Positions 2,484 to 38,385 of a stretch of DNA of 39,349 bases are shown in pieces (the first letter of the stretch is position 1; each line of letters opens with the position of its first letter). The position numbers and the translations under genes are program-made. The notes beneath the pieces were generated by a model. The model was not told the DNA's origin and made no database searches. It saw only the letters and a list, made by a program, of their open reading frames with translations. Source of the DNA: Bacteroides sp. (GTDB taxonomy: Bacteria; Bacteroidota; Bacteroidia; Bacteroidales; Bacteroidaceae); contig JAFURM010000022.1 in assembly GCA_017471925.1 (NCBI GenBank), positions 1 to 39,349 on the forward strand, read 5' to 3'.

Positions 2484-5400
2484 ATGAAGATGAGATATAT
2501 GGTTTGGGGATGGCTTGCCCTGATGATGGCGGGCTGCTCACAGGAAGAACAGGTGGAACAGGAGATAACGCCCCTGAAGGGTGACGTGAAGGTCACGGCA
2601 ACCCTGGACGGCAAGGCGGGCGATACCCGCATCGGCTACACCGAAACGACAGACATGACCTACATGACGTGGGAGCAGGGTGACCTCATTGATCTCTACA
2701 CCACGGACGGCAACACGGTGGTCTACAAAGCCGTTGCCGACGGTGGTACGGAGTTCTCGCCCAACGGCGATGACCGACTGGTGAACACGGAGGGTGAGGT
2801 GGTCTATGCCTTCTACTCGCCCGAGACCTTAGGCAGCTCGGTGATAACGGAAGACACCAAGACCATCAAGCTGCCCAACATGCAGGCTTGGAGGGGTCCC
2901 TATGATATTCAGCCGATACTCTATGCGATAGGTACCATCAGCAATGGCAGTCTGGCCTTGCAGTTCGAGCATATCCAAACCTACCTGAAGGTGACCATCA
3001 ACACCAACGTTATCCCCGCAAGCCTGAACACGACCGTGGGCAGGCTGGCAATTGTGACTGAAGACAGCAGTCCCCTCTGCTTCTCAGGAGGGGATGCCGA
3101 TGTCTACGACATCACCACGCAGACCTTCAATGTGGAGCCTATCACCTATCTTAACGTGGGGATGCAGGACGTGGACTTCACCACCAACAGCGAGGTGACC
3201 TTCCGCGTGCCCATCATGCCGCAGACCTCTGGTAGCTTGCGCTTTGAAGTCTACACGGCCGACAACGATAGTCTGGTCTACACGCTCTCCAAGGAGGTGC
3301 CCTCTGCCGGTCTGCAGGCCGGTCACCTCTATCCCGTGACGCTGAACCGGGATGCAAGCAGCGGTGGGGAAGTGGCCTACCTTGCCACCGGCTCCGTCTT
3401 CAATGAACGCGTCAAGCAGTTGGCCAACAACAGCACCACCATGACCGTGAACGATACGGACCAGGCCATCAAGAGCATCACCTTCCAGGTGGGAGTCACC
3501 GAAGTGCCGGCCAACTACGTGACTGTCTCTGCCGACGACTCTCCCGATCCCATCTATGCCTCCTTCAGCGAGGAAGACGGTCTGCTGACGGTCTCCACAC
3601 CGGCCAAGAGCATGGAGATAGTGGATGCTTCCTGTCTCTGCTTCAGCTTGACTGCTTTGCAGAGCGTGGATTGGGGTGGCTTCGTTATCAATGAAACGAC
3701 GATTACTTTATATGGTATGTTTCATGGCTGTACAGCTTTAACATCCTTAGATGTCTCTGGCTGGAATACATCCCAGGTGAAGAATATGGGTAGTATATTC
3801 TACGAATGTAGTGCTTTGACTTCTTTGGATGTCTCTGGTTGGAATACATCCCAGGTGGGGTATATGGGTGGTATATTCTGCAAATGTAGTGCTTTGACTT
3901 CTTTGGATGTCTCTGGTTGGGACACCGCTAATGCGACAGATATGATTGGTATGTTTTTTTACTGTACCAACCTGTCTGCTTTAGACGTTTCCGGTTGGAA
4001 TACTTCCAATGTGACACGTATGGGTTCCATGTTTGCTGGGTGTTCCTCTTTGACTTCTTTGAATGTTTCCGGCTGGAACACGGTTAATGTGACAGATATG
4101 GGGACTATGTTCCATTTTTGCGGAGCTTTGACATCTTTGGACTTATCCGCTTGGAATGTCTCCGCGGTGACAAACATGGCAGCTATGTTCCAAGGCTGTT
4201 CTGCCCTGTCCTCCCTGAACATGGCCAATTGGGGCACTTCTAACGTGACGGGGATGAGCTTCATGTTCGATGCGTGCAAGGCATTGGAGACACTGGACCT
4301 CTCCACCTGGGACGTTTCCAAGGTGACCGATATGACCAATATGTTCCAGAATTGTGAAGCCCTGACCTCCCTGAACGTGGCCAATTGGAATACTTCTAAT
4401 GTGACACGTATGAATAGTATGTTCTGTGGCTGCTCTGCACTGACTTCTTTAGATGTTTCCAGTTGGGATACTTCTAATGTGACGGATATGAATGATATGT
4501 TTGCTTCTTGTAGTTCTTTGGCTACTTTGGATGTGTCAGGTTGGAATACTTCCAATGTGACGGGGATGAGCTTCATGTTCGATGCGTGCAAGGCATTGGA
4601 GACACTGGACCTCTCCACCTGGGACGTTTCCAAGGTGACCGGTATGACCAGTATGTTCCAGAATTGTGAAGCCCTGACCTCCCTGAACGTGGCCAACTGG
4701 AACACGGGTAGCGTGACGCAGACTATTAACATGTTCAATGGCTGTACTGCCTTGGAGACTTTGGATCTCTCGGGCTGGGACACTTCCAACATGGGACTCA
4801 TGTATCACATGTTTGAGGGCTGCTCTGCATTGAAGTCGCTGGATGTCTCCACTTGGAATCTCGCCAAGGCAACAGACATCAGCTATATGTTCGCTTCATG
4901 CTCACAGTTGGAGACGTTGGACGTTGCCAAGTGGAACATGGCCAGCCTGACCAATCCAGCCTTCATGTTTACTGGCTGTTCTGCGCTGAAGACATTGGAC
5001 CTCTCCAATTGGGACATGACCAAGGCCGGCAATCTGATAGGCATGTTTGAGGGCTGCTCTGCATTGGAATCGCTGGATGTTTCCGGATGGGAAACCTCCA
5101 ATGTGACGGACATAAACAGCCTGTTTGCTGGATGCGCTGCCCTGAAAACTTTGGATGTTTCCAAATGGAACACTGCCAATGTAACGAATATGTACGCAGT
5201 GTTCAGCAGCTGTACTGCCTTGACTTCCTTAGACCTCTCCGCCTGGGATACTTCCAAAGTGATAGACATGAGTTCGATGTTCAACGCTTGTGAGGCTATG
5301 ACAGACTTGAATCTTTCCACGTGGGATGTCTCTAATGTGACCTCTATGAGGGATATGTTCCAGAACTGCTGGGCCTTGTCTTCCTTAGATATCACCAAAT

Positions 5401-13708: not shown

Positions 13709-13796
13709 GGACGAGACACGTCCGGTCCGTGGACGAGACATGTCCGGACGACGGGCCACACATGTCTGGACGACGGACGAAACATGTCCGGACGAA
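13709..13796. repeat. Tandem array of four 22-bp units
   Basis: Units begin at 13709, 13731, 13753 and 13775 with exact 22-bp phasing. Their common core is GACGAGACATGTCCGGAC with a central ACATGT palindrome; unit 1 has ACACGT and unit 3 starts GGGCCAC. The array is upstream of the GH92 promoter. There are no spacers, so it is not a CRISPR array. Confidence 0.9.
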
Positions 13797-13895: not shown

Positions 13896-14010
13896 GGGTG
13901 TAGCACGCGATGGCTTGTGCTTGTAGCATGCGTTGGGCGATGCCTGTAGCACGTGATGCCCGATGCCTGTAGCACGTGATGCCCGTCAGGTGCAGACGCT
14001 GTTGCCCGGT
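13896..14010. repeat. Tandem array of five 23-bp units
   Basis: Units begin at 13896, 13919, 13942, 13965 and 13988. The core is CCTGTAGCACGTGATGCC; units 3 and 4 are nearly identical, units 1 and 2 diverge and unit 5 is degenerate. Another degenerate unit may precede it at 13873. It is separated from the 22-bp array by 99 bp. No gene is seen in the whole 13583-14214 gap. Confidence 0.85.
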
Positions 14011-35643: not shown

Positions 35644-38385
35644 TTATTGCTTCTTTAGCGCAGCGATGCTCTCTTTCAGAGACTTGATGATGCTTTCGGC
35701 ATCGGCTTGCTTCTTGCGCTCCATCTCGATGACGGCGGCGGGGGCGTTGTTCACGAACTTCTCGTTGCCCAGCTTCTTCAGCACGCCTTGCAGGAATCCC
35801 TCCTTGTGTTTCAGTTCGGCTTCCATGCGGGCAATCTCGGCCTCCACGTCAATCATGTTGCCCAGGGGTACGGCGAACTCTGTCGTTCCTACCATGAAGG
35901 CGGCAGCTCCGTCGGTCTTGGCCTCTACGGTGTTGATGGCCGAAAGGTTGCACATCTTGCTGATGACGGCGTTGAAGGCTGCGACGGGGTTTTCGCCTAC
36001 GACCTGCAACTCCAGTGCCTCTTTCTGTGCGATGTTCTTTTGCAGGCGGATGGCGCGGATGTTGCTGATGATTTCCTTCACGGTCTCAAACTGTGCAATG
36101 AGTGTTTCGTCGGCTGCGGCAGGAGCGGTCATGGGGCTTACCATCAGGCTTTCGCCATCCTTGCGGTCGATGATGTGCTGCCACAGTTCTTCGGTGATGA
36201 AGGGCATGAAGGGGTGCAGCAAGTGGAGCAGGTTGTCGAAGAAGGAGATGGTGGTGTCATACACCTCCTTGTTGATGGGCTGTCCGTAAGCGGGCTTGAT
36301 CATTTCCAGATACCAGCTGGAGAACTCGTCCCAGAAGAGTTTGTAGACTGCCATCAAGGCTTCGCTCAGGCGGTATTTGCTGAACAGGTCGGCCACCTCG
36401 GCTGCCACGGCATTCTGCTTGGCCTTGAACCACTTCATGGCCAGGGCGGCTGCTTCGGGAACCGCTGCTTCGCTGCTCACTTCCCAACCCTTCACCAGAC
36501 GGAAGGCGTTCCATATCTTGTTGTTGAAGTTGCGTCCTTGCTCGCACAGGGCATCGTCAAAGAGGATGTCGTTACCGGCCGGTGCGGAGAGCATCATGCC
36601 CATGCGTACACCGTCTGCGCCATACTTCTCTATCAGTTCCAGCGGGTCGGGGCTGTTGCCCAATGACTTGGACATCTTGCGGCCCAGCTTGTCGCGTACG
36701 ATACCGGTGAAGTAGACGTTCTTGAAAGGCATGTCGCCCATGTATTCATAGCCGGCCATAATCATGCGGGCCACCCAGAAGAAGATGATGTCCGGGCCGG
36801 TCACCAGGTCGGCAGTGGGATAGTAGTAGCTGATTTCCTCATTGCCGGGGTTGTTGATGCCGTCGAAGAGCGAGATGGGCCACAGCCAGCTGGAGAACCA
36901 GGTGTCCAGTGCGTCTTCGTCCTGACGCAAGGAGAAGTTCTTCTTTATCTCGTCCAAGGAACAGCCTCCCCAAACTCCTCCCGAGGAGGGGGATTCGTTG
37001 AGAATGGTCTGTACCTGTTGCCAGGCGGCTTCTTCCGATTCGGCTACGATTACCTTAGGCAATCCTTCCGGCAGGTCGGAAGCTCCCCCTTCGGAGGGAG
37101 TTGTGGGGGCTACATACCAGGCCGGTATGCGGTGTCCCCACCACAACTGGCGGCTGATGCACCAGTCCTTGATGTTCTCCAACCAGTTCTTGTAAGTGTT
37201 CTTGTATTTGGCCGGATAGAACTTCAGCTCGTCGTTCATTACGGGCGGCAAGGCGATGTCTGCAAAGTGTTGCATCCGGAGGAACCATTGCATGGAGAGT
37301 TTCGGTTCGATGGCCACGCCGGTACGTTCCGAGCAACCCACCTTGTTGGTGTAGGCTTCCACTTTCTCTAACAGTCCGGCCTCGGCCAGGTCTTGCTCTA
37401 TCTGCTTGCGCACGTCGAAGCGGTCCATGCCCACGTAGAGGCCGGCAGCTTCGGAGAGGGTGCCGTTGTCATTGAAGATGTCGATGGAGGGCAGGTTGTA
37501 CTTCTCGCCCAGCATATAGTCGTTCACGTCGTGGGCCGGTGTCACCTTCAGACAGCCGGTGCCGAACTCAATGTCCACGTATTCGTCTTCGATGACGGGA
37601 ATCACACGGTTCACTAAGGGCACGATGACCTTCTTGCCCCTCAGCCATTGGTTCTTCGGGTCGTTGGGGTTGATGCACATGGCCGTATCGCCCATGATGG
37701 TTTCGGGGCGGGTGGTAGCGACAATGGCATAGGGTGCCCCTTCAACTTTCTCCTCGGATGGAGTTGAGGGGGCTACATAGTAGCGCAGATAGTAAAGTTT
37801 GCTATGCTCCTCCTTGTAGATGACCTCTTCGTCGCTCAGGGCGGTGAGTGCTTTGGGGTCCCAGTTCACCATGCGCACGCCACGGTAGATGAGCCCCTTG
37901 TTGTAGAGGTCCACGAAAACCTTGATGACGCTTTGGCTGCGCTTCTCGTCCATGGTGAAGGCGGTGCGGTCCCAGTCGCACGATGCTCCCAGCTTGCGCA
38001 GCTGCTTCAGGATGATGCCGCCGTGCTCGTTGGTCCATTCCCAGGCGTGTTTCAGGAACTCCTCCCGGGTGAGGTCGCTCTTCTTGATGCCCTGTGCGGC
38101 CAGTTTGTTCACCACTTTGGCTTCGGTGGCGATGGAGGCGTGGTCGGTGCCGGGCACCCAGCAGGCGTTCTTGCCTTCCATGCGGGCGCGGCGCACCAGA
38201 ATATCTTGAATGGTATTATTAAGCATGTGGCCCATGTGGAGCACACCCGTGACGTTGGGGGGAGGAATGACGACGGTGTAGGGTTGACGACCATCGGGTT
38301 TCGAACTGAACAGTTTGTGGTCCAGCCAATATTGGTACCACTTTCCCTCCACATCTGCGGGGTTGTACTTACTTGCTAATTCCAT
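35644..38385 (-). CDS. valS: Valyl-tRNA synthetase with three repeat-derived in-frame insertions
   Basis: A 913-residue class I synthetase that charges tRNA-Val. The HIGH motif is [14 protein letters not shown] (His50-His53) and the KMSKS loop is [11 protein letters not shown] (about 569-574). The CP1 editing domain is marked by [31 protein letters not shown] and an anticodon-binding helical domain follow. The last 65 residues form the coiled coil typical of ValRS ([20 protein letters not shown]). Three short GC-rich palindromic copies lie in frame at residues about 203-212 (VAPSTPSE), 424-433 ([10 protein letters not shown]) and 465-474 ([10 protein letters not shown]), each in a loop between conserved blocks. 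Together they would explain a protein some 35 residues longer than I recall for Bacteroides ValRS. The promoter is at 38418-38450. Confidence 0.96.
36963..36993 (+). repeat. GC-rich palindromic element C inside valS (opposite orientation)
   Basis: On the plus strand the copy starts AGCCTCCCCAAACTCC and continues CCGAGGAGGGGGA. This matches elements A and B, which read in this sense on the minus strand. In valS it is translated as [10 protein letters not shown]. Confidence 0.7.
37087..37116 (-). repeat. GC-rich palindromic element B inside valS
   Basis: On the coding strand it starts TATGTAGCCCCCACAACTCC and continues CTCCGAAGGG. It matches element A at 26 of 30 positions and follows the conserved GHRIPAWY block. 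Confidence 0.8.
37750..37779 (-). repeat. GC-rich palindromic element A inside valS
   Basis: On the coding strand it starts TATGTAGCCCCCTCAACTCC and continues ATCCGAGGAG. It lies a few residues before the ATTRPET editing-domain motif and is translated as [10 protein letters not shown]. Confidence 0.8.

Follow-up and report, generated by a model that had tools for sequence, protein, structure and literature searches.

What kind of sequence is found three times, in both orientations, inside the reading frame of one essential enzyme? The question was raised by valS in a Bacteroides sp. contig (JAFURM010000022.1, assembly GCA_017471925.1), of which the whole stretch analysed, 39,349 nt of the forward strand, is called the window hereafter. 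The original prediction held that three copies of a short palindromic sequence, one of them inverted, are translated without frameshift between conserved blocks of the valyl-tRNA synthetase (ValRS). The window valS product matched T. thermophilus ValRS 1GAX (E=7e-189), and the three elements, A, B and C (Table 1), were indeed all translated at the predicted places within this one frame. Alignment places element A at the start of the ValRS editing domain; the solved editing-domain construct 1WK9 aligns with the window ValRS from residue 213 on.

Table 1. Features of the window, with scores of the three elements under the independent matrix.
Feature	Position	Strand	Description	Score (bits)
valS, valyl-tRNA synthetase (host gene)	35644..38385	-	single open frame, 913 aa	
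Element A	37736..37773	-	full 38-nt palindrome GCCCCCTCAACTCC...GTTGAAGGGGC; directly N-terminal to the editing-domain motif ATTRPET	27.8
Element B	37080..37110	-	tail and hairpin (GCCCCCACAACTCCCTCCGAAGGGGGAGCTT), peptide APTTPSEGG; C-terminal to GHRIPAWY	27.2
B-C segment	36995..37079	-	about 28 residues of ValRS proper, from ValRS alignments	
Element C	36963..36994	+	inverted copy of the A/B unit, weaker match	14.6
Tandem repeats	3735-4893		units of 78, 156 and 312 bp	
Two small tandem arrays	13731-13795 and 13899-13985		units of 22 and 23 bp	

When recomputed, the identity of A and B on the coding strand was the predicted 26 of 30 bases, and an ungapped comparison gave 24 of 26. Since the common TATGTA represents host Tyr-Val codons, the element proper starts at GCCCCC (37773 in A, 37110 in B). 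The element model R1 was built from 16 copies including A, B and C, so its E-values for these three are circular. This circularity was avoided with an independent matrix, derived from 59 intergenic copies of genomes G025, G078 and G542 only, under which A, B and C were the three top-scoring places of the window. Chance levels with this matrix reached at most 13.3 bits in 100 order-1 simulated windows and 11.2 bits in 300 codon-shuffled valS sequences. Element C, by far the weakest, therefore exceeded chance narrowly, and with it the claim of an inverted family member stands. Of the three, A alone forms a full palindrome (RNA z -4.2; DNA z -3.1); the structures of B and C were not unusual when folded alone (RNA z -0.42 for B; -0.06 and -0.03 for C). 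Pattern searches were informative only in their 10 exact matches, A among them: with up to two mismatches, the true pattern gave 20 and 14 matches and a reversed-pattern control 20 and 15, probably because the motif is nearly mirror-symmetric. An RNA regulatory element was considered and rejected on two grounds, the lack of Rfam matches to the element at gathering scores in the window and in loci L111, L313, L330 and L335, and the ordinary folds of B and C alone.

We then aligned the window ValRS with the best 80 of 596 confirmed Bacteroidales ValRS. As had been anticipated, most of these relatives lacked elements at sites A, B and C, and at site B most had a short loop (YFLPEGGYVVA is typical) in place of the longer window sequence. 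For the genus, 99 genomes were searched and the best 30 loci taken, 29 of them besides the window genome; elements at the valS sites were absent from 27 of these 29, and many of the 27 had a different 17-residue loop at A. Elements were present at sites A and C in L169 (G100), and L172 (G120) contained a related B-C segment. Several distant lineages had GC-rich palindromic inserts of their own in these ValRS loops, at A, B and C in L099, at B and C in L100, L071 and L072, at A in L109 and at B in L096. The expectation that the three blocks would be precise gaps in relatives had to be abandoned: at site A, the insert takes the place of several native loop codons, which G025 has, and B and C bracket genuine ValRS sequence. 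A 17-residue alternative loop at site A, DDxSGETGxEGEVVHRDAxGR, is patchy across Bacteroidales and allele-like (L031, L035, L042, L049, L050 and others). In L088, this loop contains an inverted repeat of another, AT-richer sequence (GTGGAAAGTGGAAAGATGA...TCATCTTTCAACTTTCAACTC), translated in frame.

The elements are not confined to valS. As predicted, the motif recurred elsewhere in the genome: R1 matched 40 dispersed places when E<=1 was allowed, and of the 32 with E<=0.01, 26 lay in frame in identifiable genes, namely LeuRS (11), a DUF3987 protein (four), ValRS (three), two ABC-F proteins (two each), the RecQ N-terminus (two), NuoL (one) and a glutamate-synthase-like oxidoreductase (one). 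Of the remaining six places, four fell in a long open frame (C18) that matches no Pfam family and might not be a gene; another separates two genes taken for fumarate reductase subunits, and the last is in intergenic DNA (C7). The NuoL and reductase genes were named by eye. Weaker R1 matches were found at the C-terminus of PhoH and in a SNF2-type helicase. With a looser pattern and the window left out, 35 of 37 copies in the stretches examined were in ORFs of at least 100 aa, at least three of them visibly chance matches. The LeuRS chain measures 1132 aa in the window genome against 945 in its best-matching counterpart (G025), a difference of 187, and four palindrome-coded LeuRS inserts were absent from all 19 congener LeuRS read; G031 and G088 had other extra residues at site 2. 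The LeuRS copies are spaced in 51-bp steps, so local duplication does occur. The LeuRS unit also recurs at three LeuRS sites with no match longer than 56 nt outside LeuRS, and spread within one gene is therefore common. Many units consist of two facing hairpins with a short spacer and the pyrimidine tail outermost.

Other palindromic arrangements accompanied these copies. Besides the element, the NuoL-like protein (L113:2548-2741, G000:C29) contains an array reading PSPRGRVRERLGDTEHSY that looks like a second palindromic repeat. In two ABC-F paralogues (L114:3502-3588 and L115:3521-3682), a composite occupies the same position and has a similar spacer (CTTCATGACAATGCKCTCACATCGC), as would result from gene conversion or from copying of one paralogue into the other, and G025 (L157) has an element at the same ABC-F place with another spacer. 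In a RecQ homologue (L152:3639-3714, G000:C1), the apparent N-terminus and start codon derive from a palindromic composite.

In the genus survey (R1 at E<=0.001, 45 candidates scored per genome), 19 of 158 genomes had matches, the window genome included, with 41 places in G078, 28 in the window genome, 19 in G542 and 18 each in G025 and G100. Among the copies examined, 30 of 34 were intergenic in G078, 13 of 18 in G542 and 16 of 23 in G025. Most copies read in G078 and G542 were intergenic units of about 90-120 bp, and intergenic units of these two genomes had outer inverted AAATGGGAATTTA-like arms. Two intergenic units that were folded gave one long hairpin each (z -7.6 and -5.9).

What the original prediction missed is that these palindromes also form the two ends of an in-frame DUF559 cassette, located at the same ValRS site in the congener G542. 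In that protein, a PF04480 (DUF559) domain (E=1.2e-34, residues 232-338) lies between two facing element copies at site A, whose hairpins are separated by about 125 residues in frame; B and C of the window also face each other, as two cassette ends would. A similar DUF559 domain was found at leuS site 1 in the G078 LeuRS (E=2.3e-30). At valS site A, the bare palindrome was present in the window, in G100 and in L109, from a Muribaculaceae genome, and the DUF559 cassette in G542, G404 and G338, which belong to three families. The alignments establish in-frame insertion and a common junction at this site: all six inserts begin after the same codons, Tyr-(Tyr/Asn)-(Val/Ile/Leu), and in the bare form one hairpin seems to connect the left tail with the right, as after internal deletion.

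DUF559 is often found in Vsr-like PD-(D/E)XK endonucleases, as stated in excerpts of PMC12907096. PF04480 was present in 40 of the 158 genus genomes and in 160 of 393 genomes drawn from the order, many of these assemblies being incomplete; DUF559 was not found in the window assembly, which is 89% complete. Of the 150 matches listed from the order, 31 were in open frames of 500 aa or more. Together with four loci from the genus, these made 35 loci whose hosts were read as LeuRS (15), IleRS (four), ValRS (two), SpoIID (two) and, in the remaining 12, restriction, sugar-enzyme or helicase genes; family scans support 8 + 6 of the 35 names (the IleRS assignment rests on a family model in two of four) and the others come from BLAST to ValRS/LeuRS or from reading by eye. 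Beyond the 35, DUF559 hosts were the G542 ValRS and the SpoIID copies L370, L371, L373, L374 and L378. All four IleRS cassettes read sit between HYPFE and (F)PADFI, and short Pro/Ser/Gly-rich peptides link the DUF559 part to the host protein. Genus loci read gave a valS site A cassette in one and a leuS site 1 cassette in two of the 158 genomes searched. The most conserved acidic/His positions of DUF559 (E, D, E and H) were kept in 42, 42, 42 and 41 of the 42 embedded rows, one locus being counted twice; from the PD-(D/E)XK fold, we take these residues to be the active site. No splicing of the cassettes is apparent from their sequences, and intein families were not among the matches of 2, 8 and 6 cassette proteins (E limits 1e-3, 1e-10 and 1e-8). 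DUF559 was also seen in frame in restriction-modification-like genes of several families (L443, L445, L446, L447, L448, L455, L456 and L458), of the types HsdR, HsdM, Eco57I-like, N6/N4 methylase and type ISP (L445, L447 and L448 named by eye).

At the genome level, the co-occurrence of element and DUF559 was modest in the order, where 11 of 15 element-bearing genomes had DUF559, against 149 of 378 others (p=0.014). For the genus, the figures were 7 of 19 and 33 of 139, without significance (p=0.26), and DUF559 presence was rejected there as a predictor of the element. A few spacers compared by eye showed no resemblance to DUF559 remnants.

The cassette ends follow a common plan, a pyrimidine-rich tail outermost and then a hairpin. 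In the 86 DUF559 domains that had flanks on either side, we compared the left flank, by alignment, with the reverse complement of the right one. This comparison establishes palindromic ends for many cassettes: inverted flanks reached the threshold (>=40) in 36 of 86 domains (35 of 84 once a double-counted locus and a split copy are removed). Of 193 control ORFs, stop-to-stop frames of 100-260 aa from the same stretches that are not all genes, one did so, as did 18 of 430 pairings of flanks taken from different loci. The other 50 domains were below the threshold, which direct repeats reached in 20 of 86. Free-standing DUF559 genes of the genus are flanked by other inverted palindromes, often CTCCTCC...GGAGGAG...GGTGGTAGG (L384, L385, L387, L388, L391, L392, L396, L397 and similar loci), and nearby, L381 and L382 show further palindrome pairs that lack DUF559.

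When the G078 and G122 LeuRS genes were compared, one cassette block proved much more alike in the two species than the sequence on either side of it. The cassette differed at 9 of 479 positions and the flanks at 183 of 1152 (113 of 600 upstream, 70 of 552 downstream; Fisher p=1.8e-19). The block ends at palindromes, the nearest outside differences lying 5 nt to its left and immediately at its right end. A second insert is present at leuS site 2 in G078 and none in G122. MITE-type target-site duplication was also looked at: host codons are replaced, not duplicated, at valS A and leuS site 3.

On this evidence, we consider it probable that the window elements are non-autonomous remains or members of a mobile nuclease-cassette family of Bacteroidales. 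Its coding form would comprise a pyrimidine-rich tail and hairpin, a DUF559 (Vsr-like, PD-(D/E)XK) domain, and an inverted copy of that hairpin and tail. The cassette occupies loops of essential or conserved proteins (LeuRS, ValRS, IleRS and others), hosts that tolerate the extra domain, and host and nuclease form one open reading frame. Internal deletion between the inverted hairpins could reduce a cassette to a bare palindrome that stays translated as a scar; valS site A would be an example, with insertion of a bare copy as an alternative origin there. Further non-autonomous copies, made of two facing hairpins with a short spacer, would have spread to other loops, genes and intergenic places, and these dispersed copies may have been moved in trans. 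The DUF559 nuclease itself might move the cassette, either by homing-like cutting of the empty allele or by cutting at the hairpins. Against this reading weigh the weak genome-level co-occurrence, the 89% complete window assembly without DUF559, the 50 of 86 domains below the flank threshold, the native sequence between B and C and the spacers unlike DUF559 remnants, and we know of no DUF559 activity on these hairpins. A plasmid source was rejected, as tblastn of the G542 insert against plasmids gave 40 records, with no Bacteroidales among 10 named genera (8 further were unnamed).

The alternative that survives best, although we hold it to be unlikely, is that plain REP/BIME- or RPE-like palindromes insert anywhere and persist in frame in tolerant loops, the DUF559 genes being mere passengers between them. 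The intergenic position of most examined copies in G078, G542 and G025 and the window assembly without DUF559 are in its favour, and intragenic REPs, also in tRNA synthetases, have been described in other bacteria, according to excerpts of PMC3733652. The inverted palindromic flanks of DUF559 far above controls (36/86 vs 1/193) speak against it, as do the cassette and the bare palindrome at the same ValRS codon and the LeuRS cassette that forms a block bounded by palindromes. In addition, the usual REP partner, Y1_Tnp (PF01797), had no match in the window assembly (89% complete) and occurred in 20 of 99 genus genomes searched, comprising 2 of 13 element-bearing genomes (G033 and G122) and 18 of 86 others. 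It was not found in G015, G025, G078 or G100; G542 was outside that search. A RAYT/Y1 transposase was accordingly rejected as the mover. Like the REP-RAYT system (REPtron), the family described here combines many non-autonomous palindromes with a coding copy flanked by inverted ones; unlike it, the protein is DUF559, of nuclease fold, instead of a Y1 HUH transposase, and the coding copies are often in frame inside host proteins.

The likeness to Rickettsia palindromic elements, also part of the original prediction, held in this respect: as with these elements and with intragenic GTAG/CGTC REPs, short palindromes, single or as inverted dimers, are in frame in conserved genes, here ValRS (A, B and C), LeuRS (four sites), two ABC-F genes, NuoL and the glutamate-synthase-like gene, and tRNA synthetases are among the hosts in both cases, as the excerpts of PMC3733652 state for REPs. 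We assign the elements to no described palindrome family, no Y1 transposase was found in the assembly (89% complete), and the earlier interpretation as a whole was partly supported. The Bacteroidales elements differ in being ends of a nuclease cassette and in having no GTAG or CGTC tag; the copies are preceded by varied bases, and the GTAG before A and B is made of a host Val codon and the first base of the element. An intragenic REP lies at about the same recB site in two Xanthomonas species (excerpts of PMC3733652), whereas the same ValRS codon is used in several families here.

Very improbably, the embedded nuclease and the palindrome peptides could be ordinary domain insertions kept for host-enzyme function, for example editing or regulation, inherited vertically and often lost. 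In a DUF559 tree of 85 rows and 106 columns, with 42 of 81 inner branches open, 35 of the 42 embedded rows and one free copy formed one group (SH-aLRT 91), arranged largely by host gene; the other seven embedded rows, all in restriction genes, fell outside it. The clustering by host gene (13 changes vs a shuffled mean of 39.6, with 0 of 200 shuffles as low) counts in favour of the cassette reading as well as of this explanation. The latter also agrees with the identity of DUF559 between families, mostly below that of the host, the embedded nuclease being usually less conserved there than the host protein. At the DNA level, DUF559 was more alike than both flanks in six of 13 gene pairs, less than both in six and between them in one. 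It was clearly more alike in G078/G122 and L433/L434, slightly in L452/L438 and L436/L457, and more alike in L443 with L445 and L448, where the host parts align poorly. Because DUF559 was less alike than its flanks in 6 of 13 pairs and below the host between families, old vertical descent with many losses is possible there, and recent transfer between families, to which identities give no support, was rejected. The ValRS copies of three families grouped with two sugar-enzyme copies (support 89), and the G404 ValRS copy lay away from the G404 LeuRS copy. Retention for host function is opposed by the patchy occurrence (valS site A in one and leuS site 1 in two of 158 genus genomes, among loci read), by functionally unrelated hosts (SpoIID, sugar enzymes, restriction genes) and by the block similarity of G078 and G122. 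Growth of low-complexity linkers by slippage in loops, with palindromes arising by chance from Pro/Ser/Gly codons, fits the local duplication in 51-bp LeuRS steps and the narrow excess of C, but we give it hardly any weight and it is already disfavoured by the intergenic copies, the same sequence turning up in intergenic DNA as well as in unrelated genes of several species and A, B and C all exceeding the chance controls.

The mobile nuclease cassettes that we propose resemble inteins and intron-borne homing endonucleases in that the nuclease occupies a conserved site of a conserved gene and is patchily distributed, and in one species pair it apparently moved as a block. They differ from inteins and introns in that no splicing element was found and nuclease and hairpin peptides stay in the host frame. 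The features of a homing element, conserved nuclease residues, a conserved site and horizontal mobility, were found, mobility in one clear species pair and the active site as assigned from the fold. A precedent for fusion is fungal mitochondrial rps3, an organellar gene with in-frame LAGLIDADG homing-endonuclease insertions, where a nuclease is likewise joined to the host protein without splicing; the cassettes described here are bacterial, occupy internal loops, and have inverted palindromic ends and non-autonomous derivatives. The EDxHD family is kin to Vsr. Excerpts of PMC3943268 list EDxHD among the families of homing endonucleases.

Altogether, these results suggest an undescribed kind of mobile DNA that resides in frame within essential proteins and is not spliced out. 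Whether a whole selfish class exists is, in our estimation, evenly balanced: Vsr-like DUF559 nucleases with inverted palindromic ends would settle at fixed codons of essential class I tRNA synthetases, where they are always translated as internal domains, home site-specifically without splicing, shed palindrome scars and mobilise them in trans in a REP-like manner. In the titles and abstract openings of a mostly open-access literature, we found no report of DUF559 cassettes in tRNA synthetases, nor of the palindrome family of elements A to C in Bacteroidales. Association with self-splicing elements is said, in excerpts of PMC3943268, to free homing nucleases to invade highly conserved genes; here, a nuclease apparently lives within LeuRS, ValRS and IleRS as a translated domain. 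If this reading is true, it would provide a partner protein for a bacterial palindromic-repeat family previously without one and a testable role for DUF559, a domain whose papers in the literature searched do not appear to concern palindromes. It would also show one way in which lineage-specific loops of essential enzymes originate, and offer ready-made fused, empty and scarred alleles for experiments.
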